Part shown: piece after piece, positions 11,062 to 34,486 of the stretch
Layout: each line of letters opens with the position of its first letter
Numbering within the stretch: position 1 is the stretch's first letter
NCBI GenBank assembly: GCA_001770725.1
Contig: MERU01000001.1
Coordinates: 1 to 64,000 of the forward strand
Origin: Burkholderiales bacterium RIFCSPHIGHO2_01_FULL_63_240
Lineage (GTDB): Bacteria > Pseudomonadota > Gammaproteobacteria > Burkholderiales > Burkholderiaceae_C
Length of the DNA stretch: 64,000 nt
Direction of reading: 5' to 3'
The notes under the pieces: generated by a model
What the model was told of the DNA's origin: nothing
The model's input: the letters and a program-made list of their open reading frames with translations, nothing else
Database searches by the model: none
Program-made: the position numbers and the translations under genes

Positions 11062-11084
11062 GCCAGCCGCCGCGTGAACGTTCG

Positions 11085-12558: not shown

Positions 12559-12559
12559 G

Positions 12560-15355: not shown

Positions 15356-16417
15356 TCAGGCCTGGTGGGCGTCGGTGCCGGCGCTGCTGACGCCCGCCGA
15401 CTCGAAGCTCGCCATCTCGCGCAGGACGCGGCAGGCGGACTCGAGCAGCGGCCAGGCCAGGGCCGCGCCCGAGCCTTCGCCCAGGCGCAGGTCGAGCTTG
15501 ATCAAGGGCTCGGCGCCCAGGTGGGACAGCATGCGTGCATGGCCGCTTTCGTCGGACTGGTGCGAGAACACGCAACGCTGCAGCACCCGTGGCTGCAGCG
15601 CGTGCGCGACGAGCAAGGCGCTGGTGGCGATGAAGCCATCGACCACGATCACGCGGCCTTGGGTCGCCGCCTCGAGCATGGCGCCGCACATCATCGCCAC
15701 CTCGAAGCCGCCAAAGGCCTGCAGCACCGCCAGGGGCGCGTGGGCCTCGGCGTTGGCGAGCAGGGCCTCTTGCAGGATGGCGAGCTTGCGCTGCACGGCG
15801 GACTCGTCGAGCCCGGTGCCACGGCCCACGCATTGGGCCAGGGGCAGGCCCGTGAGGCGGGCCATGATGAGGGCCGCACTCGAGGTGTTGCCGATGCCCA
15901 TCTCACCGAACAGCACGGCGTTGCCCGGCAGGCCGCGCACGACGTCGGCGCCTTGCCGCAGCGCCTGCTCGCATTGCGCGGCGGTCATCGCCGGACCCCG
16001 GCTGCAATCGGCCGTGCCATGGGCCACCTTGCGCAGCTGAAGCGTCGGGCGCGGTGCGATGTCCTTGGCGACACCGGCGTCCACCACGGTCAGGGCCAGG
16101 CCATGCTGGCGCGCCAGCACGCTGATGGCGGCCCCACCAGCGAGGAAGTTCTCCACCATCTGCCAGGTGACATCGGGAGGGAAAGCCGACACCCCACGAG
16201 CAGCCAGGCCGTGGTCGCCCGCGAACACCACCGCCTGCGGGGCGTTCAGCTCGGGGCGTTCGCTGCGCAGGATCAGGCCGAGCTGAAGGGCCAGTGATTC
16301 GAGGCGGCCGAGGGAGCCCAGTGGCTTGGTCTTGTGGTCGATCACGTGCTGCAGCCGGGCCGTCAGCACGGGGTCGTCGAGGTCGCACAGGGTGGGGATG
16401 AAGTCAGGCAGGGACAT
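15356..16417 (-). CDS. cobT: Nicotinate-nucleotide--dimethylbenzimidazole phosphoribosyltransferase
   Basis: 353-aa cytoplasmic enzyme that activates the lower ligand base (5,6-dimethylbenzimidazole) to alpha-ribazole phosphate using nicotinate mononucleotide. Conserved stretches include [42 protein letters not shown] and [11 protein letters not shown], the last carrying the glutamate expected to act as general base. The length is standard. It sits between cobQ (27-bp gap) and cobS in the nucleotide-loop end of the operon. It is not the metal-chelatase CobT. Confidence 0.95.
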
Positions 16418-16444: not shown

Positions 16445-17974
16445 TCAATCAGGATGGGGTGCAGCGTGCAGCAGGGCCATCAGCGCGGGCTGGCCCAGGT
16501 GCTGGCCCACAAAGTCGGCCAGGCCGTCGAGGGTGGCGTCGAGGTCAGGGGCGCACTGCCCGAACAGGGCCCGCATGGCGGCGGTGTCCTCGAACAGGCC
16601 GTGCAGGTAGACGCCCAGCACCGAGCCCTGGCGCCAACCCAGCGCGTGGCCAGATTCGTCGAACAGGATGGCCTGCGCCATGCTGCCCGCTTCGGTCTGG
16701 CCATGGTGGATTTCGTAACCCTGCACGCCGACGCCCGCCAGCGCCGACCAGGGGGATGGTGCGCCTTGGGCGCCAGCAGCGTCGGAGGCGTCTGCGGCGT
16801 CGGCAAAGCGGGCCCGCGTGAGCGACAGGCGCTTGTCGGCTTCGAAGCGGGTGCGCAGGGGCAGCAGGCCCAGGCCTTGATCGGTGCCCGAGGCACCGCC
16901 CTCGACCCCGGTGAGGTCGTCGATGTGGGTGCCCAGCATCTGCAGGCCGCCACACACGCCCAGCACCGCGCCACCGGCTTGCGCATGCCTGGTGATGGCC
17001 CGGTCCAGACTGGTGTCGCGCAGCCAGGCCAGGTCGGCACGGGTGTGCTTGGAGCCGGGCAGGATGACCCAGTCGACGCCGGCCAGGTCTCGCGGGTGGC
17101 GGGCCCAGCTCAGGCGCACGCCCTGCGTGTTGCGCAGGGGCTGGAACTCGTCGAGGTTGCTCAGGCGCGGGTAGGCGATCACGGCCACGCGGGTCAGGTC
17201 GGGCGCCGAAGCCTGGCCAGTGGGCGCATCGTCGAAGACACCGTCCTCTTCGGGCAGGCCATGGCCACGCCACATGGGCAGCACGCCCAGCGTGGGCACC
17301 CCGGTGAGCGCCTGGAGCTGCTCGGGGCCTGGCGAGAGCAGGCGGGCATCGCCTCGGAATCGGTTGAGCACGAAGCCGCGGATGAGCGCGCGCTCATCGG
17401 GGGGCAGCAGCTGGTGCGTGCCGTAGAGGTGAGCGAAAGCGCCACCCCGGTCGATGTCGGTGACCAGCAGGCAGGCGGCCTGCGCGTGCAGCGCCGTGCG
17501 CATGTTGACGTAGTCGCTGGCGTGCAGGTTGATCTCGGCGGGCGAGCCGGCGCCTTCGATGACGACCACGTCGTTCTCGGCCATGAGCTCGTCCAGCGCC
17601 CGACGCGCGTGGGGCCACAAGGCCTCGCTGCGCTGGCGCCAGGGCACGGCGCGCAGGTCCTCGCGCACCTGGCCCCACACCACCACCTGGCTGCCGCAGT
17701 CGTGCTCGGGCTTGAGCAGCACCGGGTTCATGCGCACCTCGGGCAACGTGCGCGCGGCCAGGGCCTGGAAGTACTGGGCGCTGCCGATCTCGCCGGGCGC
17801 GCCTTCCAGGCCGGGCACGACGCGGGCGTTGTTGCTCATGTTCTGCGCCTTGAAGGGCGCGACCTTCAGCCCCTGGCGGGCGTACCAGCGGCACAGGGCG
17901 GTGGTCAGCCAGCTCTTGCCGGCCCCACTGGTGGTGCCCAGCACCATGACGGCGCGTGCTCGTTTTGCCGTCAT
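16445..17974 (-). CDS. cobQ: Cobyric acid synthase
   Basis: 509-aa glutamine-dependent amidotransferase that amidates side chains b, d, e and g of adenosylcobyrinic acid a,c-diamide to give adenosylcobyric acid. The N-terminal dethiobiotin-synthetase-like ATPase has GTTSGAGKS at 13-21 followed by APFKAQNMSNNA; the C-terminal class I glutaminase-like domain contains GVCGGLQMLG with the nucleophilic Cys and a late GVYLHGLFED. The frame is open well upstream, but the start is the ATG that overlaps the cobD stop (ATGA), giving the normal CobQ N-terminus. Confidence 0.95.
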   Translation of the reverse strand: MTAKRARAVMVLGTTSGAGKSWLTTALCRWYARQGLKVAPFKAQNMSNNARVVPGLEGAPGEIGSAQYFQALAARTLPEVRMNPVLLKPEHDCGSQVVVWGQVREDLRAVPWRQRSEALWPHARRALDELMAENDVVVIEGAGSPAEINLHASDYVNMRTALHAQAACLLVTDIDRGGAFAHLYGTHQLLPPDERALIRGFVLNRFRGDARLLSPGPEQLQALTGVPTLGVLPMWRGHGLPEEDGVFDDAPTGQASAPDLTRVAVIAYPRLSNLDEFQPLRNTQGVRLSWARHPRDLAGVDWVILPGSKHTRADLAWLRDTSLDRAITRHAQAGGAVLGVCGGLQMLGTHIDDLTGVEGGASGTDQGLGLLPLRTRFEADKRLSLTRARFADAADASDAAGAQGAPSPWSALAGVGVQGYEIHHGQTEAGSMAQAILFDESGHALGWRQGSVLGVYLHGLFEDTAAMRALFGQCAPDLDATLDGLADFVGQHLGQPALMALLHAAPHPD

Positions 17975-19089
17975 GCCTGCACCACCTGTTGGCCGTTGCG
18001 CAGGCAGGCCAGCAACGCGAGCCGGGCCTGGGGCACGTGGGCGCGCAGGCGCAGCCAGGACGGCAGCCCCAGGCTGCTGGCGTCGCGCAGGCGGATGCCT
18101 GCCGCGCGGCAGCGTTGCAAGACCTGTGCAGAGCCCTCGCCTGCGGGCGGCTTGGCCAGCAGGAAAGGCACCATCGGGCCAGGCCCCTCGTGGTCGGCAT
18201 GCACGTCGGCGGGCAAGTGGCTGTGCAGCGACCAACCCAGAGCCTGCAGGTCGGCGGCCATCTCGTCGCACCAGGTGGCGAGCTGCTGCGCGCAGGCCCC
18301 AAGCCAATCGCGCACCTCGGGCTCGCACCAGGCCTGCAGCAGGGCCACGCCTTCGGCCGACAGCACCCAGCTGGGCGCCAGGTGCAGGAGCCGATCGACG
18401 TCGGCCCGTTCGGCCGAGGGCGGGGCGACCAGCACCCCAGCGCGCACACCCGTCATGCCCAAGGCCTTGTTCGGCGACCACAGCTGCCAGGCGATGCCAC
18501 GCACGCAGGAGGGCAAAGCCCCCTCCCCTGGTGAAGCGTGGCCAGGCCAGCGCAAAGGGGCGTAAGCCAAGTCCGCTGCCAGCATCAGGTCCATGGTGCG
18601 GCACAGCTCGGCCAGTCGCTGCCAGCTGGGCTCGTTCAGGCACCGACCAGTGGGGTTGCAGGGGTCGCACACCCACAGCAGCATGGTGGCGCGCTCACCT
18701 GCGGCGCGACGGGCCGATACGCGGCGGGCGAGTTCTTCAACGCTGCTGTAGCGGCTCACCGTGAGCCCCAGTGCTTCGGCCGCGGCCGCGTATTCACCAA
18801 AACCTGGCCAGGGCGTCCACACGTGCCTGACCCCTTGCAGGTGGGCCAGCAGGGTCAGGCGGCGGATGGCTTCGGCGCTGCCTGCGGTGGGCAGGAGGCG
18901 ATCGGCATCACCCAGGCCAGACCGGGCCAGGCGCTCGCGCAGGTGCAGGTAGCTGGGCTCGGGGTAGCGCCGGCGGTCTGCGCCAGCCAGGGCCATGCTC
19001 AGGCCCTCCGGCGGGGGCAACGGGTTGGCGTTGGTGGAGAAATCCCAGGCCACGGCTGGGCCCAGGTCGGTGCCGCCGTGTTCAACCAT
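17971..19089 (-). CDS. cobD: Threonine-phosphate decarboxylase
   Basis: 372-aa PLP enzyme of the aspartate aminotransferase fold that decarboxylates threonine-O-3-phosphate to (R)-1-amino-2-propanol phosphate, the linker of the lower loop. Visible features are FSTNANPL near the start, N145 in CNPTG, D173, the Schiff-base lysine K208 in WSPNKALGMTG and an arginine in GVRAG for the carboxylate. The start overlaps the cbiB stop by 8 bp. In Pseudomonas nomenclature this gene is called cobC. Confidence 0.9.
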   Translation of the reverse strand: MVEHGGTDLGPAVAWDFSTNANPLPPPEGLSMALAGADRRRYPEPSYLHLRERLARSGLGDADRLLPTAGSAEAIRRLTLLAHLQGVRHVWTPWPGFGEYAAAAEALGLTVSRYSSVEELARRVSARRAAGERATMLLWVCDPCNPTGRCLNEPSWQRLAELCRTMDLMLAADLAYAPLRWPGHASPGEGALPSCVRGIAWQLWSPNKALGMTGVRAGVLVAPPSAERADVDRLLHLAPSWVLSAEGVALLQAWCEPEVRDWLGACAQQLATWCDEMAADLQALGWSLHSHLPADVHADHEGPGPMVPFLLAKPPAGEGSAQVLQRCRAAGIRLRDASSLGLPSWLRLRAHVPQARLALLACLRNGQQVVQA

Positions 19090-20077
19090 GGGTCACTCCG
19101 ATTGCCAGCAACCAGCTCAGGCAGCCCAGGCCGGCCCAGGCCCACCACACGGCGCACTCGCACCACCGCACGGCTTGGGGCAGGTCTTCGGGCCGAACCA
19201 GGCGAGCCTGCGCATTCAAGGCATACGCACCCGGCTTGTTCAATCGCACCCCCAGCAGCAGGGCAGCCGTGCCCATGGGCCAGCCGCCATTGGGCGATGG
19301 GGTCAGGGCCGCTTGCCGGCGCATCGCGCGCCAACCGGGCCAGCGACCCGCCGCCAGGGCCAGCAGCAAAGCGGTCAGGCGGGCAGGCAACCACGACAAC
19401 GCGTCATCGGCCCGGGCGGCCCAAGCGCCCATCCAGCGGCGGTGGTCCTTGTAGCCCCACATGGCGTCGGCCGTGTTGGCGAAGCGGTAGAGCGCCGCAC
19501 CAGGCAGCCCGGCGACGGCGAACCAGAACAGCGGCGCTACCACCGAGTCGTTGAGGTTCTCGGCCAGGGTTTCGATGGCGCTTTCGCGCACCTGGGTGGC
19601 ATCCAGCCTGTCCACCGGGCGGCTCACCAGCCGGGCCAGGCGTTCGCGGCCCTCGGGCAGGGACCGCACCAGGCCCACCTCCACGGCCAGCACCTCGTCG
19701 CGCAGCAGCCGCCACGCCAGCATCGGCTTGAGCAGCAGCCCCGTTGCGATCGCCAGCATCAGCATAGGCGTCGGCGCCAGCTCGCCTGCGCTGCCCAGGG
19801 CCAGCATGCGCAAGCCGATGTCCAGCGCCAGCGCCAGGGCGAGCACCACCAGGGCACCCAGGCACCAGGCCATCGCACCAGCCAGGCGGGCCGCCGCGGG
19901 CGACAGCGCCCACAACCTCGGCCCGAACCAACCCAGGTAGCGCCCCATGGCCACCACAGGGTGCCAACGCACCGGCGGCTCGCCAAAGGCACGGTCCACG
20001 CAAAGGGCCACCAGCATGGCGCCTGCGGGCCATGCCAGCCACCCTGTCCAGACCGAGCTGACGACGACTTCGTCCAT
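19082..20077 (-). CDS. cbiB: Adenosylcobinamide-phosphate synthase
   Basis: 331-aa membrane protein that attaches the aminopropanol linker (or its phosphate) to adenosylcobyric acid. Typical segments are VALCVDRAFGEPPVRWHPVVAMG near the N-terminus, AETLAENLNDSVVAPLFWF in the middle and ALYRFANTADAMWGYKD, followed by SPNGGWPMGTAALLLGV near the end. About four membrane helices are visible. It overlaps cobD by 8 bp and lies 7 bp downstream of cobO. In Pseudomonas nomenclature this gene is called cobD. Confidence 0.94.
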   Translation of the reverse strand: MDEVVVSSVWTGWLAWPAGAMLVALCVDRAFGEPPVRWHPVVAMGRYLGWFGPRLWALSPAAARLAGAMAWCLGALVVLALALALDIGLRMLALGSAGELAPTPMLMLAIATGLLLKPMLAWRLLRDEVLAVEVGLVRSLPEGRERLARLVSRPVDRLDATQVRESAIETLAENLNDSVVAPLFWFAVAGLPGAALYRFANTADAMWGYKDHRRWMGAWAARADDALSWLPARLTALLLALAAGRWPGWRAMRRQAALTPSPNGGWPMGTAALLLGVRLNKPGAYALNAQARLVRPEDLPQAVRWCECAVWWAWAGLGCLSWLLAIGVTHG

Positions 20078-20084: not shown

Positions 20085-20654
20085 TCAGTCCTCGATGCCG
20101 CGCTGCGCGGGCACGCCAGCGTTGTAGTGATGCTTGATGAGCTTCATCTCGGTGACGGTGTCGGCGAGGTCGATGAGCTCCTGCGGTGCGCCACGGCCGG
20201 TGAGCACCACGTTGACGTGGCTGGGACGCTCGCTCAGCACCTTGAGCACCTTGTCGAGCTCAAGCCAGCCGTATCGCAGCGGGTAGGTGATCTCGTCGAG
20301 CACGACCATGAAGTGCTCACCCGCCAGGATGGTGGCGGCGGCACGTTCCCAGCCGTCGCGGGCCAGTTGGGCCGAGTGCTCCAGGTCCTTGCTCTTCCAG
20401 CTGAAGCCATCGCCCAGGCCTTCGATGGGCACGCCCAACTGCTCGAACATGCGGTGCTCGCCGAAGCGGGCCGAAGGCACCTTCATGAACTGGTAGATCC
20501 TGACCTGCTTGCCACGGCCATGGGCGCGCAAGGCCAGGCCGAAGGCCGCGGTGCTCTTGCCCTTGCCATCGCCGGTGTGGATGAGGACGAGGCCGCGACG
20601 CGGGCCATCGGGTTTTTCGACCTGGCGGTCAACGGGTGGTTTTTCAATCTGCAT
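20085..20654 (-). CDS. cobO: Corrinoid adenosyltransferase (CobO/BtuR type)
   Basis: 189-aa ATP:cob(I)alamin adenosyltransferase that adds the 5'-deoxyadenosyl upper ligand to corrinoids in the cytoplasm. The P-loop is GDGKGKST at 28-35; other CobO/BtuR motifs are QFMKVPSARFGE, VVLDEITYPLRYGW and VLTGRGAPQELIDLADTVTE. The start is the ATG sharing one base with the preceding cobN-like stop (TGATG); longer in-frame starts would run deep into that gene. In this operon it can adenosylate both imported and partly assembled corrinoids. Confidence 0.95.
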   Translation of the reverse strand: MQIEKPPVDRQVEKPDGPRRGLVLIHTGDGKGKSTAAFGLALRAHGRGKQVRIYQFMKVPSARFGEHRMFEQLGVPIEGLGDGFSWKSKDLEHSAQLARDGWERAAATILAGEHFMVVLDEITYPLRYGWLELDKVLKVLSERPSHVNVVLTGRGAPQELIDLADTVTEMKLIKHHYNAGVPAQRGIED

Positions 20655-23600
20655 CACGGGGCTCCGTGTCGAGGGGTTGGATGGATGGGAATCAGGGATC
20701 GGGCGCCCACCCGCCTGGGTTGCCGCCATTGCCAGACGGCGCCCGCACAGGCCCACAGGGCGACGGTACACCAGGCCAGGCCGGTTTCGAGCCAGGGCGT
20801 GAGGGCGTCGGGCCTGGGTGGCTGCGCAGGCTGCGGGGCCAGCACCCAGCCTTGTGGCGGGGCTTGGAGAGCTGTGGCCGCGGGAGGCGGTGCAATCGGG
20901 GTGTTCAGCCCCTCACCCACCGACAGGCCGCGTGGGACGGTGCCGCGCGCGCGCGGTGCAGCATCGTCCACGCCATCGGCCGCTTCCTGCCGCGCCCAGT
21001 CTCGCACCACCTCCAGCTCGCTCGGCAAGGGCCCGGCACGGGTCATCTCGCGGTAGCGGCGAGCCAGGGCCTGGCGCGTGTCGGCATCGGGGTGCCAGTG
21101 GCCCATGCGCGCGGCCTGGATGAGGCGCTCCAGCGCCTGCGCGTAGGCCTGCGGGTGGCTGGCCAGCCACTGGGGCACGCCCAGCTTGTGGCGATCGTTC
21201 ACCAGCACGTCGTGGAAGGCCTGCCAATGGTCGTCGCGCACGGTGTCGGGCGCGGTGGCCTGCCAGCCCCAAGCGAACTGCACGGCCTTGAGCACCTGCA
21301 AGGTGCCCGAATAGCCCTCGGCCACCTGGCCTTGCAGCCAGCCCGGGTGCAGGTAGCGGGCCTGCATCTCCAAGGCGATGGCGCGCCGGGCCGATTCGGT
21401 GTGCGCCTCGCTGGTGTCGTGCAACTGGTTCACGTACAGCGCCAGGCCCTCGCTGCGACCGGCCTGGCGCGCGGCAGCAGACAGACCACCGAGGTACTGG
21501 AAAGGGTCATCCGAGGTGACCATGGCATAAAGGTGCGAGCTGCGCGACATCAGCGCGGCCTGTGTCTGACGCAGGTGGGCACCGAACGCTTGGGCCATGG
21601 TGGCCGTGCCCAGACCGCTCACCGGCTCACCATCGATGTAGGGCTGGCTCATGCGCTGCAGGAACAGCGAGCCCAGGCGGGCATCGTCGCGTTGCAGTTC
21701 GTTCGACTGCACCGCTTCCGACAGGCCGGTGCCGTAGTCGCCCGCCACGTTGCCGAACACGCGCGCCTGGGCCAGCGTCTGCGCCAGGGCCGGGGCCACC
21801 CCCGCTTGCAGCAGCGACTGCCTGACCTGCGCCGTGTGGCGCGCCACCGGGTTGTCGAAAGCGACCTCATCGGCCTGGGCCACCAGCCGCACCGCCTGGT
21901 CCACCAGCGCCATCAGGGCGGGGAACTGGTCGCGGTAGGAGCCCGTCACGCTCAGCAGCACGTCCACGCGGGGGCGGCCCAGCTCCGACAGCGGGATGAG
22001 CTGCACCGATGTCGGCCGACCGGAGGCGTCCCACACCGGCCGCACGCCCAGGGCCACCAAAGCCTGGGCTTCCATGATGCCCTGATGGCGCAGGGTCTCG
22101 CCGGCCCACAGCGACAGGGCCAGGCGCTCGGGCACGGCCTGGCCATGCTCGCTGCGCCAGGCCTTGAGCCAGTCGTTGAACAAGCCCTGTGCCACCTCGT
22201 GGGCTTGCTTGGTGGGCAGGCGAGCCGGGTCCAGCCCGGTGAGGTTGCGACCGGTGGGCAGGCTGTCGGGGTTGCGGATCGGGTCGCCCCCATACGCCGC
22301 TTCGACAAAGCCTGCGCCCAATGCGCGCAGCAGGCCAGGCACCTCGCCTTCCGTGGCCATCAGCTTGTCAAGCGCCTGGGCGCGCAGGGCCAGGGCATGC
22401 AAGGCCACGCTGTCGATGGGCTTGCGCGCGGCTCGGTTGGGCACGGGGCCTTCGGGCTCGGGCGGGCGCAGGTCGAGCCGGCTCGCGGCGTCGGCGTCCT
22501 TCAAAGCCACCTGCAGCCAGCGCGCGGGCCTGGCCATGGCCACCGCGGCGTGGTCGATCAGGAAGGCTTCGTCGATGTCTTCGCCCAGGGCCTCGATCAG
22601 CGGCTTGCGCAGCGCCTGCAGGATGGTCTGCTGGCGCAGGGCCGCCTCGGGCACCCGGCCGAACACCGCCAGCCCGCGTGGCTGGGCGCTCTGTGCCAGG
22701 GTGTCGAGGTAGGGGTGCAGCAGCTCGAGGAAGCCTTCGAAGTTCGCTGCGATGGCTTCGGGGGCCCAGCCCAGGTCGCGGTGCAGGCGGTGGGCCACGA
22801 ACTGGTCGAGCAATTGCTTTTCAAGCGCCACCTTGGTGGGACCGGCGTCCACCGTTTCCCACTCGTGCATGAGCTCGTGCATGTGCGCCATGCCCGCTTC
22901 GAAGCCCGCTGGCGCCATCACCGGCGTGCGGTGGCTGACCATCACCGCCCTGCCCCGGCGCTTGGCGGTGAGCGCCTCGCCCAGGTTGTCGACGATGTAG
23001 GGGTAGACGACGGGCACGTCGCCCAGGGGCAGCAGCGCGTCGTCGTTGACGTCCAGGCCGCGCGACTTGCCTGGTGCCCACTCCTGCGTGCCGTGCGTGC
23101 CGAAGTGGATCAGGGCATCGGCCTGGCGGGCCCAGAGGTAGACGGCCAGGTAGTGGTGCGACAGCGGCGTGCGGCTGCGGTGCATGAACGGGTTCTGGCC
23201 CTGGTGCAGCGTCTCTTCGCGCGGGGGCTGGGGCAGCACGGACAGGCGGCCCCTTTGCAGCCGGGGGATGACGAACACCTTCTGCCCTTGCCAGGTGAGC
23301 ACGTAGCGGCTGCGCTCGGGCGGGCCCCACTGGGCCTCGATGCGTTCGCGCACCGCGATGGCTTGCTGACGCCACCAGGCCAGGTAGTCGGCCAGGGGCA
23401 GCGCCGCGGCCTGGTCCTGCTCCAGCAAGGCGCGCAGGTCGGCCTGCGGGTAGTAGGCGGCCAGCAAGGGTTGCAGGCGCGTGATCCACTCGGCCTCTGG
23501 CAGAGGCTGGGTGACGTAGCCGGCCTCCTGCAGGCGCGTGGACACCACCTCCAGGCTGCGTGGCACGTTGAGGAAGGACGCGCCGAAATGGCTGCCGCCC

Positions 23601-24808
23601 GGTGGGTAGTTGTAGACCATGGCCACGAGCTGCTGCTCAGCGCGCGGGCGGGTCTGCAGGCGAACCAGGCGCGAGGCCTTGTCGACCACGGCCTGCGCCT
23701 GGCGCTCGATGAGCTCGACCGTTCGCCCCTGCTCGCCATGGGCCGTCACCACGATGGGGTCGATGCCACCCGCGCCTTCGGGCTGGGCCAGGTAAAAGGG
23801 CACGTCGCTGCTGCCGATGCCCTGGGTGTCGGACGCCCAGCGTGCGGCGTCGCCGGCTCGGAAGGGCTGGGTGATGAGCAAGGGGCGGTCCCAACGCTTG
23901 AGCAAGGCCTGCAAGGCCGCGCCCTGGCTGAGCAGCTGGTGCGACACCAGCACGCGCGGCCAGGCCTGCCCGGGCTGGGCCGGGTCGCTCAGCATGGCCT
24001 CCAGGCCCGTGGCATCGACCTGCTGGCCGAACACCGCATAGGCCACCAGGCCCCGGCTGGCGAACAGGCGCAGCCAGCGGTCCAGCCATTCGGTCTGGCC
24101 GTTGACGAAGTGGTAGCGGTGCACCAGCACCACCACGGCAGGCAGGCCTTTGAAGGCAGTTTGGCGGGACTGCCAGCGCGCGCCCTCGCCCGCATCGCGC
24201 AGGATGCCCGGTGCGTCGGGGTGGTAGAGGCCGCGGGTGGGCCATCGCACCACCGGCGCCAGTTCAGGGCGGGGTTGCCCTGCCAAGCGGGCTCGCTGCC
24301 AGCGCAGGGCCTGGGCCACGTTGGCCACGCCGCCGGACTGCAGGTACTCGGCCAGGCCGCTTGCCGTGTCGTCGGCCTGCGGCAGTTGGCTGCCTTCGGG
24401 GCCGACCCACACCACCGTGCGGGCGGTGCGCACAGACGCCGTGCGGGCCAGGGCCTCGTCCAGCAGGCGGTGCATGCGCGCCTCGACCGAGGCATGGGGG
24501 GCATCGATCCACACCGCATCGGCCTGCGCCAGGGCCTGGTTCAGCGATTGCTGCTGGGCCTCGGTCAGGCTGTTGCCACCGCGCAAGGGAAAGTCGATGT
24601 GCGTCAAGCGCAAGCCTTGTGCCTGGGCTTGCGCTTGCAGCAAGGCCGTGCGGGCACCGGGCGTGATCTCGCCCGTGAGCCACAGCAGGTGGCCGCCCTG
24701 GGTGGGGCTGGTGGCCTGGGCCACACCCGGCCACCACCCGCCCAGGCACACACATGCCAGGCAGGCCAGCAGGGCAGGCCATCGGGCGATCCACCGCCAA
24801 GCTGTCAC
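20654..24808 (-). CDS. CobN-type metallochelatase large subunit, predicted exported and membrane-anchored
   Basis: 1384-aa member of the CobN/BchH family, the large substrate-binding subunit of cobalt and magnesium chelatases. Family hallmarks include LIHFGTHGTQEWAPGKSRGL, PYIVDNLGEALTAKRRG and, near the C-terminus, the MVTSDDPFQYLGGLSAA region. Unlike ordinary cytoplasmic CobN, it begins with a signal-peptide-like segment (basic VTAWRWIAR, hydrophobic LLACLACVCLGG, then AQA) and ends with a proline-rich linker and one hydrophobic helix (LAWCTVALWACAGAVW, about residues 1341-1361), followed by a basic tail. The predicted topology is therefore periplasmic with a C-terminal anchor. The GTG start overlaps the DUF2149 stop (GTGA), which suggests coupled translation with the two PMF-type partners. 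CobS/CobT-type AAA+ subunits are absent from the window. Cobalt insertion, cobalt removal or corrinoid handling are possible; the exact reaction is unknown. Confidence 0.85.
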   Translation of the reverse strand: MTAWRWIARWPALLACLACVCLGGWWPGVAQATSPTQGGHLLWLTGEITPGARTALLQAQAQAQGLRLTHIDFPLRGGNSLTEAQQQSLNQALAQADAVWIDAPHASVEARMHRLLDEALARTASVRTARTVVWVGPEGSQLPQADDTASGLAEYLQSGGVANVAQALRWQRARLAGQPRPELAPVVRWPTRGLYHPDAPGILRDAGEGARWQSRQTAFKGLPAVVVLVHRYHFVNGQTEWLDRWLRLFASRGLVAYAVFGQQVDATGLEAMLSDPAQPGQAWPRVLVSHQLLSQGAALQALLKRWDRPLLITQPFRAGDAARWASDTQGIGSSDVPFYLAQPEGAGGIDPIVVTAHGEQGRTVELIERQAQAVVDKASRLVRLQTRPRAEQQLVAMVYNYPPGGSHFGASFLNVPRSLEVVSTRLQEAGYVTQPLPEAEWITRLQPLLAAYYPQADLRALLEQDQAAALPLADYLAWWRQQAIAVRERIEAQWGPPERSRYVLTWQGQKVFVIPRLQRGRLSVLPQPPREETLHQGQNPFMHRSRTPLSHHYLAVYLWARQADALIHFGTHGTQEWAPGKSRGLDVNDDALLPLGDVPVVYPYIVDNLGEALTAKRRGRAVMVSHRTPVMAPAGFEAGMAHMHELMHEWETVDAGPTKVALEKQLLDQFVAHRLHRDLGWAPEAIAANFEGFLELLHPYLDTLAQSAQPRGLAVFGRVPEAALRQQTILQALRKPLIEALGEDIDEAFLIDHAAVAMARPARWLQVALKDADAASRLDLRPPEPEGPVPNRAARKPIDSVALHALALRAQALDKLMATEGEVPGLLRALGAGFVEAAYGGDPIRNPDSLPTGRNLTGLDPARLPTKQAHEVAQGLFNDWLKAWRSEHGQAVPERLALSLWAGETLRHQGIMEAQALVALGVRPVWDASGRPTSVQLIPLSELGRPRVDVLLSVTGSYRDQFPALMALVDQAVRLVAQADEVAFDNPVARHTAQVRQSLLQAGVAPALAQTLAQARVFGNVAGDYGTGLSEAVQSNELQRDDARLGSLFLQRMSQPYIDGEPVSGLGTATMAQAFGAHLRQTQAALMSRSSHLYAMVTSDDPFQYLGGLSAAARQAGRSEGLALYVNQLHDTSEAHTESARRAIALEMQARYLHPGWLQGQVAEGYSGTLQVLKAVQFAWGWQATAPDTVRDDHWQAFHDVLVNDRHKLGVPQWLASHPQAYAQALERLIQAARMGHWHPDADTRQALARRYREMTRAGPLPSELEVVRDWARQEAADGVDDAAPRARGTVPRGLSVGEGLNTPIAPPPAATALQAPPQGWVLAPQPAQPPRPDALTPWLETGLAWCTVALWACAGAVWQWRQPRRVGARSLIPIHPTPRHGAP

Positions 24809-25176
24809 GGCTGCGGCCCCTTCTCAGGGGCACCTGCCGACGCAGGCGAAGCAGCCGAAGCGGCTTCGGGCACGTACACGATGCGGCCATCCTTCAAGCG
24901 ATACGCCACGCCGGTGCGCTCGCCTTGCGCGGCACCGACCTGACCTTCGCCCTTGAAACGCACCTCGCGGCCGTCCTCGCGCACGATGATCTCCATGTCC
25001 GGTCGACCTTCGTTGCGGATGATCGTCACCTTGTCCTTCGACGACGCACTGCCGTGCGCGGCCACCGCCGTCAGCAGGGCAACGACCAGCACCAGGAAGA
25101 CGTCGACCAGGTTGACGGCCGACAGCATCGGGTCGTCGTCGTCTTCCTGCAGCAAGGGCAAGTGCTTGAGGCTCAT
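24805..25176 (-). CDS. DUF2149 family protein, ExbD-like
   Basis: 123-aa protein with an acidic N-terminus (LLQEDDDDPM) followed by one transmembrane helix (VNLVDVFLVLVVALLTAVAA) with an aspartate, D25, near its cytoplasmic end. ExbD and TolR have the same layout, where that Asp is needed for proton coupling. The remainder is a small periplasmic domain (KVTIIRNEGRPDMEIIVRED) and an Ala/Pro tail. Its start overlaps the ExbB-like stop (ATGA) and its stop overlaps the CobN-like start (GTGA). Family membership is by resemblance; proton coupling is inferred. Confidence 0.8.
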   Translation of the reverse strand: MSLKHLPLLQEDDDDPMLSAVNLVDVFLVLVVALLTAVAAHGSASSKDKVTIIRNEGRPDMEIIVREDGREVRFKGEGQVGAAQGERTGVAYRLKDGRIVYVPEAASAASPASAGAPEKGPQP

Positions 25177-25640
25177 GCAGCCACCCCGCGCGCGCGCCGC
25201 ACCTGCAGCAGCTCGGCCAGCAGCCAGCGGCGGCGCACCGAGTACACCACCAGCCCGACACTGGCCGAGGCCAGCGCCAGCACCACGCCCGCGAAGGCAC
25301 CGCTGAACACCGACAGGGCCTGCTGCCCTTCTCCGGCGGCCACGCTCTGCAAGGCCGGGCCCAGCGGGATCATCGTGGCGATCAGGCCCAGCATGGGGCT
25401 CAGGCGGCTGAGCAGGCGCACGGGCTCGAGCTGACGCACGATGGCCAGCTCGATGTCTTCGAGCGTGTGATCAGCCGATGCGTCGAGGCTGGTGTGGCGC
25501 GGGTTTCGCCAGCGCTGCCAGGCTTCCATGAGGGTGCCGCCGCCCACCCAGACGGCATAGGCAAAGGCCAGCGCCACCAGCGCCAGCACGGGCAGCAGGA
25601 AGGACTGGGCAAGGTGAGCGATGCCGTGTTCAAGCCACAT
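25173..25640 (-). CDS. MotA/TolQ/ExbB-type proton channel family protein
   Basis: 155-aa inner-membrane protein with three helices (about 11-33, 77-97 and 108-130). The second holds the family motif SPMLGLIATMIPLGPAL, corresponding to the LLGLLGTVIGM segment of ExbB/TolQ, and the third is FSGAFAGVVLALASASVGLVV. It is shorter than E. coli ExbB (about 240 aa), as expected for this minimal subgroup. The ATG at 25640 lies inside the end of cobB (11-bp overlap); an earlier start would give an implausible Cys/Pro-rich leader. With the DUF2149 protein it would form a proton-driven stator, here paired with a CobN homologue instead of TonB or Tol proteins. Confidence 0.85.
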   Translation of the reverse strand: MWLEHGIAHLAQSFLLPVLALVALAFAYAVWVGGGTLMEAWQRWRNPRHTSLDASADHTLEDIELAIVRQLEPVRLLSRLSPMLGLIATMIPLGPALQSVAAGEGQQALSVFSGAFAGVVLALASASVGLVVYSVRRRWLLAELLQVRRARGVAA

Positions 25641-27006
25641 GCGCGTCTTTCGGTGCACCGGTCGGTGCGAACAGGGCCGCCACGGCGGCCGGGTTGGAGG
25701 GGAAGTACAGGTGCAGGAAGGACGCGTGCAGGCGACCATCGCGCCACACCGCCTCGGGTCGACCGTTCAGGCGCTGCGCCTCGGTCTGCGTGAACGCAAC
25801 CGCCTGGCTGTGCATGCGGGCGTGGTGGAAGGTGTGGCCCCGCAGCGTGCCTTCGGGCAAGGTCACGCCGTGCAGACCCAGGTTGACAAGGCGCTTTTCC
25901 ATCGAGCCCTCTCCGGGCAGCAGGCCCCACATCGGCGAGCGTTGGCCCGCGTGGTCCGTCAGGCCATCGAGCAGGGCCAGCATGCCGCCGCACTCGGCCA
26001 CGATGGGCCGGCATGCTGCGTGGTGAGCACGAACGGCCTCGCGCATCGGCGCGTTGGCGGCCAGGGCCTGCAGGTGCAACTCGGGGTAGCCACCGGGCAG
26101 GTACAGCGCATCCACGCCGGGCAGGGCCGCGTCGGCCAAGGGCGAGAAAAAGCACAGCTGCGCACCCATGGCTCGCAGCACATCCAGGTTGGCCAGGTAG
26201 AGGAAGGCGAAAGCCGCGTCCCGGGCCACGCCGATGCGCACGCCCTGCAACGCCCGGCCGCCCGATTCGCCAAGCCAGGCCTGTTCGGGCGGCAGCATCG
26301 CCGGCGCGAACACCACGGGATCGGGCATCGCTGGCTGCAGGCGGCCCAGCGCCTCGGCCGCGCGATCGAGCCGGGCTTCGACGTCGGCCACCTCATCGGC
26401 CTGCACCAGCCCCAGGTGGCGCGATGGCAGGCCAAAGCCCTCGTCGCGTGGCAGGCCCCCGAACCACCGCATGCCTTCGGGCAGGCTTTCGCGCAACAGC
26501 GTGGCGTGGCCGTCGCTGCCCACGCGGTTGGCCAGCACGCCCGCCAACGTCAAACCAGGTCGGTAGTTCGCCAGGCCGAAGGCCAGCGCACCGAACGTTT
26601 GTGCCATGGCCGACGCATCGATCACGGCCATCACGGGCAGGCCCAGGCGGATGGCCAGGTCCGCGGTCGACGAAGCGCCATCGTGCAGCCCCATCACGCC
26701 TTCGACCAGGATGACGTCGGCTTCTTGCGCAGCCTCCCACAGCAGCTGTCGGCAGTGGGCCTCGCCGCCCATCCACAGGTCGAGCTGGTAGACAGGCGCG
26801 CCGCTGGCCCGCGCCAGCAGCATGGGGTCGAGGAAATCGGGGCCGGTCTTGAAAACGCGCACGCGGCGCCCCTGCTGCACATGCCAGCGCGCCAGAGCGG
26901 CCGTGGCCGTGGTCTTTCCCTGGCCCGACGCCGGGGCGCTGATGAGCAGGGCTGGGCACTGGACGGCACCAGGGCATTCAGCGAGATGGGGCAAGGCTGC
27001 GGGCAT
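25630..27006 (-). CDS. cobB: Cobyrinate a,c-diamide synthase
   Basis: 458-aa glutamine-dependent amidotransferase (CobB/CbiA) that amidates the a and c side chains of cobyrinic or hydrogenobyrinic acid. The N-terminal ATPase domain has APASGQGKTT at 24-33, KTGPDFLDPM and VEGVMGLHDG; the C-terminal glutaminase domain has YLPGGYPELH and nucleophile C339 in VAECGGMLAL. It lies upstream of the ExbB-like gene and 33 bp downstream of btuD. No corrin-ring methyltransferases are present here, so its substrate must come from elsewhere in the genome or from imported precursors. Confidence 0.94.
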   Translation of the reverse strand: MPAALPHLAECPGAVQCPALLISAPASGQGKTTATAALARWHVQQGRRVRVFKTGPDFLDPMLLARASGAPVYQLDLWMGGEAHCRQLLWEAAQEADVILVEGVMGLHDGASSTADLAIRLGLPVMAVIDASAMAQTFGALAFGLANYRPGLTLAGVLANRVGSDGHATLLRESLPEGMRWFGGLPRDEGFGLPSRHLGLVQADEVADVEARLDRAAEALGRLQPAMPDPVVFAPAMLPPEQAWLGESGGRALQGVRIGVARDAAFAFLYLANLDVLRAMGAQLCFFSPLADAALPGVDALYLPGGYPELHLQALAANAPMREAVRAHHAACRPIVAECGGMLALLDGLTDHAGQRSPMWGLLPGEGSMEKRLVNLGLHGVTLPEGTLRGHTFHHARMHSQAVAFTQTEAQRLNGRPEAVWRDGRLHASFLHLYFPSNPAAVAALFAPTGAPKDAHVA

Positions 27007-27039: not shown

Positions 27040-27810
27040 TCACAGAACGGGCAAGGCCACCCACTGGCCATCCAGCTGGTGCAGGCGCACGCGCTGCTCG
27101 AACACCTCGCGCACCGCGTCATGGCAGAGGGGGTCGTCGCAGGGGCCGTGGTGCAGCACCCGGCCCTGCTGCATGACGACCAGGCGGTCGGCCATCAGCG
27201 CCACGTTGAGCTCGTGCAGCACGCTGACCACGGTGCGCCCTGCCGCCACCAGTTCGCGCACGATCTGCAGCCAGTCGGCCTGGTGCGGCGGGTCGAGGTG
27301 GGACAAGGGCTCGTCCATCAGCAGCACATCGGCTTCAACGGCCAGGGCCCGCGCCAGCAACACCCGCTGGCGCTCGCCGCCGGAGAGTTGCCCCATCGGG
27401 CGCTCGCGCCAGGCCCACGACTGGGTCGCGAGCATGGCCCGCTCCACGGCGGCGTGATCGGCCGGCGACGGAGGTGCCAGCCACGGTTGGTGTGGCAGGC
27501 GCCCGAGCATCACGACATCGGATGCGCGCAGGTCATCGGCCCCCTGCTCTGCCTGCCCCAGCCAGGCGAGGGTTCGGCCGCGCTCGCGCCCTGGCCATGC
27601 CCCGATGGGACTGCCGCCCAGGCTGACCTCGCCCGCCATGGGCTGCAGACCAGCCAGGCAGCGCAGCAAGGTCGATTTGCCAGCCCCGTTGGGCCCGACG
27701 ATGGCCGTCCAGCAAGCTGGCTCGATGCGCAGGTCGACATCGCTGAGCACGGTCTGCCGTCCGTGGCGGACCCGCTGGATGCGACCGTGCAGGATGGGGG
27801 CGCGGCTCAT
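27040..27810 (-). CDS. btuD: Vitamin B12 ABC transporter ATP-binding protein
   Basis: 256-aa ABC ATPase that powers BtuC-mediated import of corrinoids. Walker A GPNGAGKS is at 39-46, the signature LSGGERQR at 142-149, Walker B with its glutamate in LLMDEP at 163-168, and the switch His in VLHELN. The start overlaps the btuC stop (ATGA). FecE/FhuC-type transporters look similar, but gene context behind a cobalamin riboswitch makes BtuD the best call. Confidence 0.9.
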   Translation of the reverse strand: MSRAPILHGRIQRVRHGRQTVLSDVDLRIEPACWTAIVGPNGAGKSTLLRCLAGLQPMAGEVSLGGSPIGAWPGRERGRTLAWLGQAEQGADDLRASDVVMLGRLPHQPWLAPPSPADHAAVERAMLATQSWAWRERPMGQLSGGERQRVLLARALAVEADVLLMDEPLSHLDPPHQADWLQIVRELVAAGRTVVSVLHELNVALMADRLVVMQQGRVLHHGPCDDPLCHDAVREVFEQRVRLHQLDGQWVALPVL

Positions 27811-28799
27811 GTCAGGCCTCCTGAAGAGCGGTTCATGCGCCACAGCAGGTAGCTGCCGCCGAGCACCGCGGTGAGCACCCCGACGGGCAGCTCCTGCGGC
27901 GCGATCAGCCAGCGCGCGAGCACGTCGGCCAGCAGCAGCAGCAAGCCACCCGCCAGGCACGACAGCACCATCAGCGCACCGTGCGTGACCGACACCACGC
28001 TGCGCACCAGGTGCGGGGCCACCAGGCCCACAAAAGAGATCAGGCCAGCCTGGGCCACCGCCGTGCCCGTGGCCGCCGACAGCACCAGCACCAGCACCCA
28101 GCGCGCCCAGGTCACCGACACGCCCAGGCTGCTCGCCGCGGCATCGCCCAGGCTCATGGCGTCGAGCGCGCGACTGCCACCCAGGGCCAGCAACAGGCAC
28201 ACCACCAGCACCGGCGCCATCGTGCCCACGGCGGGCCAGCCGATGAAACCGGTGGTGCCCAGCATGAAAGCCTGCATGGCCCGGGTGATGTCGGGCACCA
28301 TCAGCATGGTCAGGGCGCTCAAGGCCCCCAGCACCACGCCCACCACCACGCCCGCCAGCAGCAGGCGCAGCGTGTGCTGCACCCCACGCGCCAGCACCAG
28401 CGTCAGCGCCACCGCCATCACCGAGCCCATGAAGGCCGCGCCACTCACGCCCAGGCGCACCCAGACGTCGGCGGAGGCAGGGCCCACGCCCAGCCAGGCC
28501 AGGCAGGCGGCCACGCCCAGCGCCGCGCCCGAAGAGCTGCCCAGCAGGTATGGGTCGGCCAGCGGGTTGCGGAACACGCCCTGAGCGAGGGCGCCCGACA
28601 GCGCCAGCAAGGCCCCAGCCAGCCAGGCCCCCATCGAACGTGGCGCGCGGACCTCCCACGCAATCTGCCAGGCCAGGGGGTCGGCCCCCCAGGCCTGAGG
28701 CCCGCTCCAGCCGGTGCTGCCCACCGCCAGCGCCAGCACCCCGGCCAGAGCTGTCAGCGCGATGAGGACGAGGCCCAGGCCCCAGCCGCGTCGGTTCAT
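27807..28799 (-). CDS. btuC: Vitamin B12 ABC transporter permease
   Basis: 330-aa FecCD-family permease with about ten transmembrane helices. Characteristic segments are RAPRSMGAWLAGALLALSGA, FRNPLADPYLLGSSSGAALG, GFIGWPAVG and ISFVGLVAPHLVR. BtuC forms a homodimer with two BtuD subunits and receives cobalamin from BtuF. The ATG overlaps the btuF stop by 4 bp and the stop overlaps the btuD start, so the three transporter genes are translationally coupled. Confidence 0.9.
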   Translation of the reverse strand: MNRRGWGLGLVLIALTALAGVLALAVGSTGWSGPQAWGADPLAWQIAWEVRAPRSMGAWLAGALLALSGALAQGVFRNPLADPYLLGSSSGAALGVAACLAWLGVGPASADVWVRLGVSGAAFMGSVMAVALTLVLARGVQHTLRLLLAGVVVGVVLGALSALTMLMVPDITRAMQAFMLGTTGFIGWPAVGTMAPVLVVCLLLALGGSRALDAMSLGDAAASSLGVSVTWARWVLVLVLSAATGTAVAQAGLISFVGLVAPHLVRSVVSVTHGALMVLSCLAGGLLLLLADVLARWLIAPQELPVGVLTAVLGGSYLLWRMNRSSGGLT

Positions 28800-29698
28800 G
28801 ACCCTGCCCCGGTTTGCCGCGCCACCTGCTGCTGCAGGCAGGCCAGCATGATGCGAGCGGCTTCACCCATGCGCGGGCCCGGCCGCGAGAGCACGTCCAC
28901 CTGGCTTGGCGTGAAAATGCAGATGCGTCCGTCGCGCACCGCACGGATGCGGTCCCAACCGGGCCGGTGCGGCAGGCCCGGCGCGCTGCGCGCCCCCACC
29001 ATGATCAGGTAAGGATCGGCTCGCACCACGTACTCCGGGTTCAGGCGCGGGAAGGGCCCCAGCGAGGCCGGCACCACGTTGTCCTGGCTCAACCGCTGCA
29101 AGGTGTATCCAATGAAAGACGAGGTGCCAGCGGCGTAAGGTGCGCTGTCGACCTCGTAATACACACGCCAGCCGCGCGCGGCCTTCGGCACCATGGCCGC
29201 GGCCGCATCCACCTCGGCGTCGATGCGGCGGGCCAGGCGCTCGCTCTCGGCCACGCGCCCCAGCACCGCCCCCACCTTCTGCACCACGCGGCGCACGTCG
29301 TCCTGCGTTCGGGGCTCCAGCGCGACCACCTTCAAGCCCAGGGCTTCGAGGCGATCGATCACGCGGGCGGACACGCCCAGCAGCACCACATCGGGCCGCA
29401 GCGACACGATGAGCTCCACGTTCGCATCGTCCAGTCCACCGAGCTTCGTGAGCTTCTGCACCGACGCCGGGTGGTTCGAGTGGCGGTCGACCCCGACGAT
29501 GCGGTCGCAGGCCCCCAGGTCACAGACCGTCTCGGTCAACGAGGGCAACAGGGTCACGATGCGTTGGGGTGGCGTGGCCCAGCGCGAGGTCACGCCACGG
29601 TCGTCGCGCACCTCCAGCGCGTGGGCGCCCCCAGCCACGCTGGCCAGCATGAACGCACCGAGCAGGCAGGCCCAACGGGTGATCCAGCGGCTCTTCAT
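28796..29698 (-). CDS. btuF: Cobalamin-binding periplasmic protein
   Basis: 300-aa solute-binding protein of the BtuF/FecB helical-backbone family. The signal peptide is MKSRWITRWACLLGAFMLAS through AHA. The mature part has RIVTLLPSLTETVCDLGA, VGVDRHSNHPASV, VELIVSLRPDVVLL and RADPYLIMVGA, typical of type III binding proteins. It presents corrinoids to BtuC. The chosen ATG (29698) overlaps the cobU stop and gives a normal signal peptide; an upstream start would add nine extra residues. Confidence 0.9.
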   Translation of the reverse strand: MKSRWITRWACLLGAFMLASVAGGAHALEVRDDRGVTSRWATPPQRIVTLLPSLTETVCDLGACDRIVGVDRHSNHPASVQKLTKLGGLDDANVELIVSLRPDVVLLGVSARVIDRLEALGLKVVALEPRTQDDVRRVVQKVGAVLGRVAESERLARRIDAEVDAAAAMVPKAARGWRVYYEVDSAPYAAGTSSFIGYTLQRLSQDNVVPASLGPFPRLNPEYVVRADPYLIMVGARSAPGLPHRPGWDRIRAVRDGRICIFTPSQVDVLSRPGPRMGEAARIMLACLQQQVARQTGAGS

Positions 29699-32147: not shown

Positions 32148-32173
32148 GTCCGTTCCTTTCTGGTGTCTTGTCA

Positions 32174-34147: not shown

Positions 34148-34224
34148 GATGAAAACAAAGCAAAGGAGCCCTGGTCAGCATCCCCGCAGACCGTGGGCGA
34201 CTGGCGCGCACGCGAACGCACGCA

Positions 34225-34440
34225 CCCCCTGCTGGCCGGTATCCGGGCTAGGCGGTGCAACCTGTGTGGCCTTCCCAGGCCCGAAGGCCCAGTGGCTGGA
34301 GGACACAGGCTGAGCAAGTGCAAACTGGCGTTGCACACACTCGACCGCCGACCGTTGCGGGGGCAGCGCAAGTCAGGCTGGCATCGGCGATGACGCGTGA
34401 CCCTCTTGCTTCCCGTTTGACTGCACCGGGTGAACCCCGG
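34225..34440 (-). promoter_or_regulatory. Cobalamin riboswitch
   Basis: All hallmark elements appear in order on the minus strand: GGTGC (34427-34423), GGGAAGC (34414-34408), CCCCCGCAACGGT (34363-34351), the B12-box core GCCACTG (34296-34290) and CCCGGATACCGG (34247-34236). About 80 nt then lead to the first receptor gene. Binding of adenosylcobalamin should switch off expression of the 17-gene operon below. It is the only such element I find in the window. Confidence 0.96.
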
Positions 34441-34454
34441 CGCGAGCACCAACG

Positions 34455-34486
34455 GCTGGCATTGTAAGCGCGCCTACAATGCCAGC
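34455..34486. promoter_or_regulatory. Perfect 12-bp inverted repeat with opposed -10 elements
   Basis: GCTGGCATTGTA (34455-34466) and TACAATGCCAGC (34475-34486) are exact reverse complements around an 8-nt spacer. Each arm ends in TACAAT read outward: the plus-strand copy at 34475-34480 would serve the ZapB-like/zapA genes (ATG at 34516) and the minus-strand copy at 34466-34461 would start the riboswitch leader. Neither has a recognisable -35, so a dual operator or activator site is likely. Confidence 0.55.

Follow-up and report, generated by a model that had tools for sequence, protein, structure and literature searches.

What might a member of the CobN chelatase family, apparently exported, do in a B12 operon that also encodes a putative proton-driven motor? 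This question is raised by a stretch of 64,000 nucleotides from Burkholderiales bacterium RIFCSPHIGHO2_01_FULL_63_240 (assembly GCA_001770725.1, contig MERU01000001.1, positions 1 to 64,000), which is called the window throughout this text. Three adjoining genes on its minus strand encode an ExbB-like protein, a DUF2149 protein and a large CobN-like protein. The reading that we favour, and to which we give about an even chance, is that the CobN-like protein works in the periplasm as a chelatase for salvaged corrinoids and is gated by the ExbB-like/DUF2149 pair.

The initial annotation of this DNA described three overlapping genes with GTGA and ATGA junctions, and our analysis confirms both the genes and their positions. 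The start of the ExbB-like gene additionally falls within the 3′ end of cobB, and because of this arrangement the ExbB-like, DUF2149 and CobN-like genes are probably translationally coupled. The two sequence features that had been singled out, namely the peptide SPMLGLIATMIPLGPAL of the ExbB-like protein and residue Asp25 of the DUF2149 protein, are both present.

Sequence and hydropathy indicate that the CobN-like protein begins with a signal sequence or anchor carrying an A-x-A type site and ends with a helix followed by a basic tail. Thus, the signal peptide and C-terminal anchor originally proposed for this CobN homologue of 1384 amino acids are borne out by hydropathy. We compared 120 proteins using fixed thresholds that were set after an earlier look at hydropathy data. 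The N-terminal segment is found in 80 of the 85 exported-group proteins and the C-terminal segment in 79, whereas neither is found in any of the 35 cytoplasmic CobN/BchH proteins, and the predicted export of the N-terminus therefore stands. Among the eleven misses, those of L057 (twice), L093, L039 and L090 come from broken or cut frames, those of L074 (N-terminal), L102 and L147 lie no more than 0.15 from the threshold, and the CobN of a Marinobacter plasmid (L114) truly ends without a C-terminal helix. Those of L074 (C-terminal, 1.04) and L111 (N-terminal, 0.34) have no explanation. The C-terminal linker and helix also contain two near-invariant glycines, G1320 and G1356. Overall, the body of the CobN-like protein appears to lie outside the inner membrane.

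The two small partners are less easily named. For the ExbB-like protein of the window, neither Pfam nor NCBIfam yields a family at E<=0.001, and its match to PF01618 is weak (E=0.0041, 17.3 bits, below the cut-off of 22.9); this family is detected at E<=0.01 in 37 of the 38 aligned ExbB-like members, with the window protein among them. Its predicted model (predicted local distance difference test, pLDDT, 91.3) returns ExbB/TolQ chains in the first 36 rows of a Foldseek search, with a probability of up to 1.00 and a best E of only 0.045. Judged by this model, the protein has the ExbB/TolQ fold. Its invariant Thr89 is aligned by hhalign to the conserved Thr in transmembrane helix 2 of ExbB, and the Thr in transmembrane helix 3 of ExbB is not kept.

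Asp25 of the DUF2149 protein is invariant in all 37 proteins compared, and hhalign places it opposite the transmembrane Asp of ExbD with a probability of only 14%. The ExbD family PF02472 is hit by just one of these 37 proteins, at E 0.061, which does not amount to a family match. The periplasmic part is a small all-beta domain in a low-confidence model, and the fold search gave no match at E<0.001, with a model too weak for this result to carry weight. Searching the PDB by sequence with the DUF2149 or ExbB-like protein alone likewise gave nothing significant. The ExbB/ExbD-like partners proposed at the outset are nevertheless recognizable from the ExbB/TolQ fold of one protein and the single helix with a conserved Asp25 of the other. 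Elsewhere in the same genome there are six MotA_ExbB-family and six ExbD-family matches, and five of the six MotA_ExbB loci read as ExbB/TolQ-type, the frame extracted from the sixth being MotB-like. The pair in the window is therefore an extra one.

Gene neighbourhoods were surveyed for the best 80 of 192 DUF2149 relatives, and the loci named below are given by their survey labels. An ExbB relative lies directly upstream of DUF2149 in all 80, and a CobN relative is found nearby on the same strand in 74, at least three B12 genes being present in 36 of these 74 loci. Similarly, a set of 300 genomes drawn from the order includes 22 with a DUF2149 match (20 above the cut-off) and 68 with a CobN match, and 20 of the 21 above-cut-off DUF2149 positions have a CobN match no more than about 5 kb away. 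The co-occurrence anticipated in the initial annotation is thus observed in both surveys, and the association of DUF2149, CobN and ExbB is not due to chance. Because of this co-location, the ExbB/TolQ fold and the pairings of Thr89 and Asp25, the two proteins are likely to be an ExbB/ExbD-like motor that serves this chelatase.

How unusual is such a module? It had been thought mechanistically new, a claim that does not hold. The combination of an exported CobN, ExbB and DUF2149 is known from Bacteroidota as hmuS/hmuU/hmuV, where HmuS is a haem de-chelatase, as described in the accessible parts of PMC12583661, PMC13227078 and PMC10434189, and related cases are BtuS and a zinc uptake regulator (Zur) unit of Pseudomonas aeruginosa. 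Moreover, the hmu operons of Bacteroides finegoldii (L163) and an Aureibacter plasmid (L166) both carry ExbB and DUF2149 genes. We computed two quick trees without bootstrap, the first containing 66 rows (65 of the 121 CobN frames plus the HmuS core) and the second omitting sixteen of these rows. In both trees, a single branch, with a Shimodaira-Hasegawa-like approximate likelihood ratio test (SH-aLRT) value of 99, splits all sampled exported CobN proteins, including HmuS, from all sampled cytoplasmic CobN/BchH proteins. The proteins from B12 operons, here termed class A, form a single clade in both (SH-aLRT 100). The positions of the long rows (the HmuS core in the first tree, L155, L111 and L157) are unsure, and the class B label of L155 in both trees is wrong, as its stretch yielded neither ExbB nor DUF2149. 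A profile of the exported relatives scores 786 bits against HmuS, 707 against CobN and 674 against ChlH among solved structures; with the window protein alone the result is a near tie (311, 290 and 303 bits, respectively). Given its side of the tree, the profile match to HmuS and the same genes in hmu operons, the window system belongs to the BtuS/HmuS kind as one of its branches and is not an isolated invention.

Class A is also set apart by two histidines. Residues were compared in 120 of the 121 frames, to which the omitted L155 was added later; frames shorter than 1100 amino acids had been dropped earlier, with the exception of L057. His105 is present in 37 of the 39 class A proteins, the other two being without data (L041 reads X and the N-terminus of L093 is missing), and His290 is present in 38, with Ala in L113. 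Both are absent in 86 other proteins (81 plus five added). The His105 column is gapped in 29 of the 81 others (22 cytoplasmic, 7 class B) and in L155, and therefore the class comparison is firm for His290 only. By comparison, the superfamily residue His572, which corresponds to His538 in the HFGTHG motif of HmuS, is invariant in all 125 proteins compared.

His105 is aligned next to the Met79 column of HmuS, and His290 is located two columns before the His254 column. In HmuS itself, these two residues are the ligands of the haem observed at the interface of head and neck, according to the accessible text of PMC12583661. This alignment suggests that the haem cleft of HmuS may be furnished here with another His pair, fit for cobalt or a corrinoid. 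The window protein has P104, L292, D1101 and Q1104 at the columns of HmuS Met79, His254, His1209 and Glu1212, the last two of which belong to the motif LSLDHxxEFMGG. Both Bacteroidota hmu proteins (L163 and L166) keep His254, His1209 and Glu1212. At the Met79 column (104), the added Bacteroidota proteins read Met or Arg, with Arg in the Aureibacter protein, and at column 292 they read His. There is no counterpart in the exported-relatives profile of the methionine-rich insertion at about positions 720-900 of HmuS.

A cobalamin riboswitch had been expected to accompany such genes, and one precedes the first gene of the window operon. Indeed, such a riboswitch heads the operon in all nine class A loci scanned (the window, L137 and all seven further loci); L033 and L113, class A rows whose stretches contain no B12 genes, were outside these scans. 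None was found in the seven class B and seven class C loci scanned, nor in L154, which is labelled class C. In L147, also labelled class C, a riboswitch leads a divergent TonB receptor gene beside the triad operon (region 9624-12605). A Zur-like palindrome is found in the same region at 12095-12109, between the triad operon and the divergent receptor. Scans for ferric uptake regulator (Fur) and Zur boxes with consensus motifs gave no usable signal in classes A, B, D and E; for class C, Fur-like sites are found with 3-4 mismatches in 6 of 14 loci versus 2 of 14 in shuffles, which is too weak for use. Another arrangement is observed in L057, where two cobalamin riboswitches are located back to back, one per strand (2379-2910), upstream of a class A operon whose CobN frame is broken.

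Two other exported lineages have B12 connections. The second lineage (L139, L140, L141, L153 and L114) adjoins B12 genes or a B12 riboswitch. Riboswitches are found in L139, L141 and L114, and none in L140 and L153, where receptor matches reach or come near the end of the stretch. The DUF2149 protein of L141 scores 37.5 bits. Of three members of the third lineage, L142 has receptor, ExbB, DUF2149 and CobN genes in one unit led by a riboswitch, and L144 and L145 show no such arrangement.

The genome of the bacterium (4.12 Mb, 13 contigs, 99.99% complete) contains a single PF02514 match and a single DUF2149 match, and both are within the window. In keeping with the initial proposal that AAA+ subunits are dispensed with, this genome, the only one searched for CobS, yields neither CobS (TIGR01650) nor the chelatase subunit CobT (PF06213). 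A strong ChlI/ChlD-like partner was not found in it either: the best TIGR02442 score is 28.4 bits, which is the level of a MoxR-type protein, compared with 298-791 bits in nine other genomes and some match in 13 of 14 control genomes. CobH/CbiC (PF02570) was also not found in the genome, which has only three TP_methylase matches. From these sequence searches, the bacterium seems unable to build the B12 ring. If this genome is counted, 17 class A genomes were searched for CbiC, of which 15 lack it and two, those of L034 and L035, have it; it is found in six of nine class B and none of nine class C genomes. Similarly, 14 of the 17 class A genomes, again counting this one, have no TIGR02442 match above 46 bits, and those of L084, L101 and L108 have strong matches along with another CobN/BchH-type protein.

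How might these parts work together? In the mechanism that we propose, the three proteins would form one inner-membrane machine. As a class I chelatase of the BtuS/HmuS type, the CobN-like protein would face the periplasm, held by its N-terminal signal or anchor and its conserved C-terminal helix, and would dock on the ExbB-like channel with its ExbD-like DUF2149 subunit. Corrinoids would be handled between the outer-membrane receptors and BtuFCD, where the central metal would be inserted, exchanged or removed, such that scavenged corrinoids become usable cobalt corrinoids for the CobB-CobO-CobQ-CobDC-CobU-CobT path. The motor subunits would probably work the head/neck clamp, opening and closing it, or else power the exchange of substrate, and might thereby play the part that ATP-using CobS/CobT or ChlI/ChlD play in the cytoplasm. 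Complex formation, the corrinoid substrate, proton coupling and the direction of metal transfer are what we infer here. Cobalt insertion into metal-free late intermediates best fits the operon, which begins where metal-free late corrins would enter, whereas metal removal best fits the family, for which HmuS provides a precedent.

In its fullest form, this proposal describes a corrinoid (de)metallase of the periplasm that would be driven by proton motive force. DUF2149 and ExbB would mechanically gate the CobN-type clamp, the corrinoid would be held between His105 and His290, and a B12 auxotroph would insert or exchange cobalt outside the cytoplasm. The platform, which other lineages would have adapted to the iron of haem, to zinc and possibly to nickel, would then be a proton-powered counterpart of the ATP-powered CobNST and ChlHID. 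We put this form forward tentatively and consider it rather more apt to be wrong than right.

Several observations weigh against these proposals. There are six DUF2149 loci without CobN, and although four are at contig ends, L066 and L110 are not, and no CobN remnant is found in either of these by tblastn. The single exception in the order survey, G058, likewise has ExbB and DUF2149 without CobN. Conversely, no ExbB or DUF2149 gene is present in the 21-kb stretch of the Marinobacter plasmid L114, the Marinobacter chromosome having been outside the search. Each direction of metal transfer also meets a difficulty, in that CobB is cytoplasmic and usually acts before CobN, which speaks against cobalt insertion, and a cobalt-free corrin has no obvious use in this cell, which speaks against metal removal. 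Finally, the accessible text of PMC12583661 reports that haem is converted by HmuS in cell lysates as well as in membrane fractions, with NADH present and without ATP. Proton flow is therefore not strictly required for HmuS, and we have lowered the claim that it drives the chemistry here; a part for it in loading, release or turnover within the living cell is still conceivable.

Could the motor serve another purpose? The ExbB-like/DUF2149 pair might instead power outer-membrane import as a private TonB-type system for the B12 receptors, with the CobN-like protein as a periplasmic corrinoid-binding or hand-over protein, perhaps a TonB/TolA-like third motor member, that undergoes no chelatase turnover. 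TonB-dependent receptors adjoin the triad here and in many other loci, ExbB-like motors normally pull on a third protein with a single transmembrane helix, and the near-invariant G1320 and G1356 of the CobN-like protein would suit such a member. In the accessible hmu papers, HmuU/HmuV are credited with energising the receptor or with haem transport at the inner membrane. However, DUF2149 mostly tracks CobN, the genome has several other ExbB/ExbD-type matches, the chelatase residue His572 is invariant in the proteins compared, and the relative HmuS is catalytic (PMC12583661, accessible text), all of which leads us to regard import as an unlikely though serious explanation. A chelatase that works without the motor, which would only reset the clamp or expel product and metal, agrees with the activity of HmuS in lysates (same source) and with the riboswitch-led Marinobacter locus that lacks both the C-terminal helix and, in its 21-kb stretch, the ExbB/DUF2149 genes. 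We judge this quite improbable, as the pair is kept in nearly all surveyed loci.

The remaining alternatives concern the identity of the CobN-like protein. HmuS is its closest characterized relative by profile (a near tie by single sequence), and the haem-receptor cut-off of TIGR01786 is passed by the receptors of two of three class B/C loci (L104 and L075, not L071), so the protein might be an HmuS-like de-chelatase of haem or another porphyrin whose place in a B12 operon is fortuitous, with corrinoids not among its substrates. This is improbable because the hallmarks Met79, His254, His1209 and Glu1212 of HmuS are absent, even though the last three are kept in L163 and L166, because the clade is riboswitch-linked and has a His pair of its own, and because B12 riboswitches also lead members of two other exported lineages (L114, L139 and L141; L142). 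A true HmuS was rejected on the ligand residues and operon context. Taken at face value, the NCBIfam equivalog name would make the protein the usual cytoplasmic CobN, the cobaltochelatase of the aerobic B12 pathway, and NF004644 is indeed above its cut-off and the gene adjoins those for CobB and CobO, which are aerobic-route neighbours. Yet the two terminal membrane segments are absent in 35 of 35 cytoplasmic relatives compared, the window protein falls outside the cytoplasmic clade, and no CobS, CobT or CobH was found in its genome. A canonical CobN was therefore rejected on topology, tree and the partners not found, and we leave this identity next to no probability.

Some loci bear on how the chelatase might attach to its motor. 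On the plasmid of Marinobacter sp. M3C (L114, 1755-12201), a riboswitch heads a B12 operon whose CobN carries a signal but has no C-terminal helix. This locus may represent a natural motor-less variant, or the motor may be encoded elsewhere. The joint lack of this helix and of ExbB/DUF2149 hints that the C-terminal helix could be a motor-docking element. However, the CobN of a Cupriavidus plasmid (L155) has this helix, and yet there is no ExbB or DUF2149 gene in its 19-kb stretch, which counts against the hint. Cupriavidus campinensis (L066), the same species as L155, has an ExbB/DUF2149 pair with no CobN beside it, and because of these complementary findings the Cupriavidus pair may be encoded apart. 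Two adjoining CobN genes without ExbB/DUF2149 are found in L155 and in another Cupriavidus plasmid, L168; those of L155 are one exported-type and one cytoplasmic-type. In L138 and L110, ExbB and DUF2149 are neighbours with no visible CobN, possibly reflecting CobN loss or another partner.

Two plasmid loci touch on nickel. In Runella slithyformis (L164, 3170-11204), a TonB receptor, ExbB, DUF2149 and an exported CobN are located within a hyp nickel-maturation cluster, and the DUF2149 protein has Glu in place of the transmembrane Asp. Possibly, this triad is a nickel version of the module. In the Azospirillum brasilense locus (L165, 4470-16428), the genes for CobN, ExbB and DUF2149 precede a B12 riboswitch, an ABC importer and a TonB receptor, with nikR on the other strand near the triad. 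At the columns of HmuS His254, His1209 and Glu1212, this CobN carries His, His and Glu, respectively. The Runella hyp cluster and Azospirillum nikR make a nickel reading suggestive, but we did not adopt it in view of the Azospirillum riboswitch and these HmuS-like columns. Considering the haem, Zur, hyp, nikR and riboswitch contexts together, the module seems to track the acquisition of metals or metallo-tetrapyrroles and not B12 synthesis.

Table 1. Features of the B12 operon in the window
Feature	Position	Strand	Evidence
Cobalamin riboswitch, operon head	34217..34468	-	RF00174 66.4 bits, gathering score 31.5
TonB-dependent receptor, first gene after the riboswitch	32174..34147	-	PF00593 and PF07715
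BtuB-like TonB-dependent receptor	30264..32174	-	Best NCBIfam TIGR01779 (TonB-B12) 404.6 bits, below the 599.7 cut-off
CobU/CobP adenosylcobinamide kinase/guanylyltransferase	29695..30426	-	PF02283; NF004469 above cut-off
BtuF-like periplasmic binding protein	28796..29725	-	PF01497
BtuC-like FecCD permease	27807..28799	-	PF01032
BtuD-like ABC ATPase, start position unsettled	27040..27855	-	PF00005
CobB, a,c-diamide synthase	25630..27006	-	NF002204 433.7 bits, cut-off 254
ExbB/TolQ-like three-helix channel subunit (putative), 155 aa	25173..25640	-	Family alignment and predicted fold; likeliest start ATG at 25640
DUF2149 protein, 123 aa, ExbD-like single transmembrane helix 16-42, conserved Asp25	24805..25176	-	PF09919 79.3 bits, above cut-off
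CobN-like (BtuS/HmuS-type) chelatase, predicted exported and doubly anchored, 1384 aa, GTG start	20654..24808	-	PF02514 866 bits; NF004644 1435.5 bits, cut-off 1248
CobO corrinoid adenosyltransferase	20085..20771	-	TIGR00708 above cut-off
CobD/CbiB	19082..20077	-	TIGR00380 above cut-off
CobC-like aminotransferase	17971..19089	-	PF00155; name inferred from place in operon
CobQ-like cobyric acid synthase	16445..17974	-	PF07685 153 bits and PF01656
DMB (dimethylbenzimidazole) phosphoribosyltransferase (lower-ligand attachment; distinct from the chelatase subunit CobT)	15356..16417	-	PF02277 421 bits

The operon (Table 1) extends on the minus strand from the riboswitch to about 15.4 kb, and its enzymes cover the late steps of B12 synthesis from (hydrogeno)byrinic acid onward, without ring synthesis. 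None of the 25 best NCBIfam rows for the first receptor is above its own cut-off, and no HmuY or HmuT-like gene is seen among the operon open reading frames (ORFs). Separately, there is a probable 6S RNA on the plus strand at 35207-35389 (39.4 bits, E 6.9e-6, below the gathering score of 46.4), upstream of which is an ORF that we take to be ZapA-like. In the relatives L034, L044 and L089, a 6S RNA above the cut-off is located on the far side of the riboswitch.

If the favoured reading is true, class I chelatases would gain a new energy source, with proton motive force taking the place of ATP, and DUF2149 would be the ExbD-like half of a chelatase motor. CobN annotations in genomes that have no corrin-ring pathway would be explained, and B12 auxotrophs would be predicted to have a way of using metal-free or wrongly metalated corrinoids. 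A further lesson is that aerobic B12 synthesis can be over-predicted from 'CobN' family calls. In addition, haem (hmu), zinc (PA1922-1925) and B12 loci would be tied to one module.

Among known systems, CobNST and ChlHID share the PF02514 family and the invariant His572 with the window protein, but they are cytoplasmic, soluble and driven by ATP through AAA+ subunits. ExbB-ExbD-TonB and TolQ-TolR-TolA are alike in the ExbB/TolQ fold, a single-helix partner with an acidic residue and an effector that reaches the periplasm. They differ in that the effector here, a chelatase of 150 kDa, would be tethered through its C-terminal end, and the periplasmic part of DUF2149 is not recognizably that of ExbD. 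In the open literature, as covered by titles and abstract openings with subscription papers mostly outside, we found nothing that links DUF2149/ExbB to energising a chelatase and no description of this corrinoid-linked CobN branch. The nearest statement is a remark in PMC13227078 that the activity of HmuS may be affected by HmuT, HmuU and HmuV.

BtuS is the third CobN type and was proposed by Rodionov in 2003 for metalloporphyrin salvage, as cited in PMC6460266. The accessible part of that source describes BtuS1 and BtuS2 of Bacteroides fragilis in work on haem iron and does not mention ExbB, whereas the window gene is part of a B12 operon. The P. aeruginosa Zur regulon unit PA1922-PA1925 also combines a TonB receptor with CobN-like, ExbB/ExbD-named and DUF2149 genes, and class B loci L071 and L083 are probably its kin. 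This unit is zinc-regulated and contains no corrinoid gene as tabulated in the available parts of PMC4542158 and PMC9431628.

The closest likeness is to HmuS-HmuU-HmuV, which comprises an exported CobN with both terminal helices, MotA/TolQ/ExbB and DUF2149 proteins and a TonB receptor in one operon, with the CobN on the same side of the tree. Likewise, hmu operons of Porphyromonas and Prevotella are annotated with ExbB (HmuU) and DUF2149 (HmuV) in the accessible text of PMC10434189. His538 of HmuS has its counterpart in His572, but the window protein is without the four hallmark residues and the methionine-rich insertion and has His105 and His290 of its own. The window also differs in its B12 riboswitch and corrinoid genes, and its operon shows no HmuY or HmuT-like ORF. 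Thus, the exported-CobN/ExbB/DUF2149 module is known, and what is new, as far as sequence comparison indicates, is a monophyletic, riboswitch-led B12 branch with two class-specific histidines.

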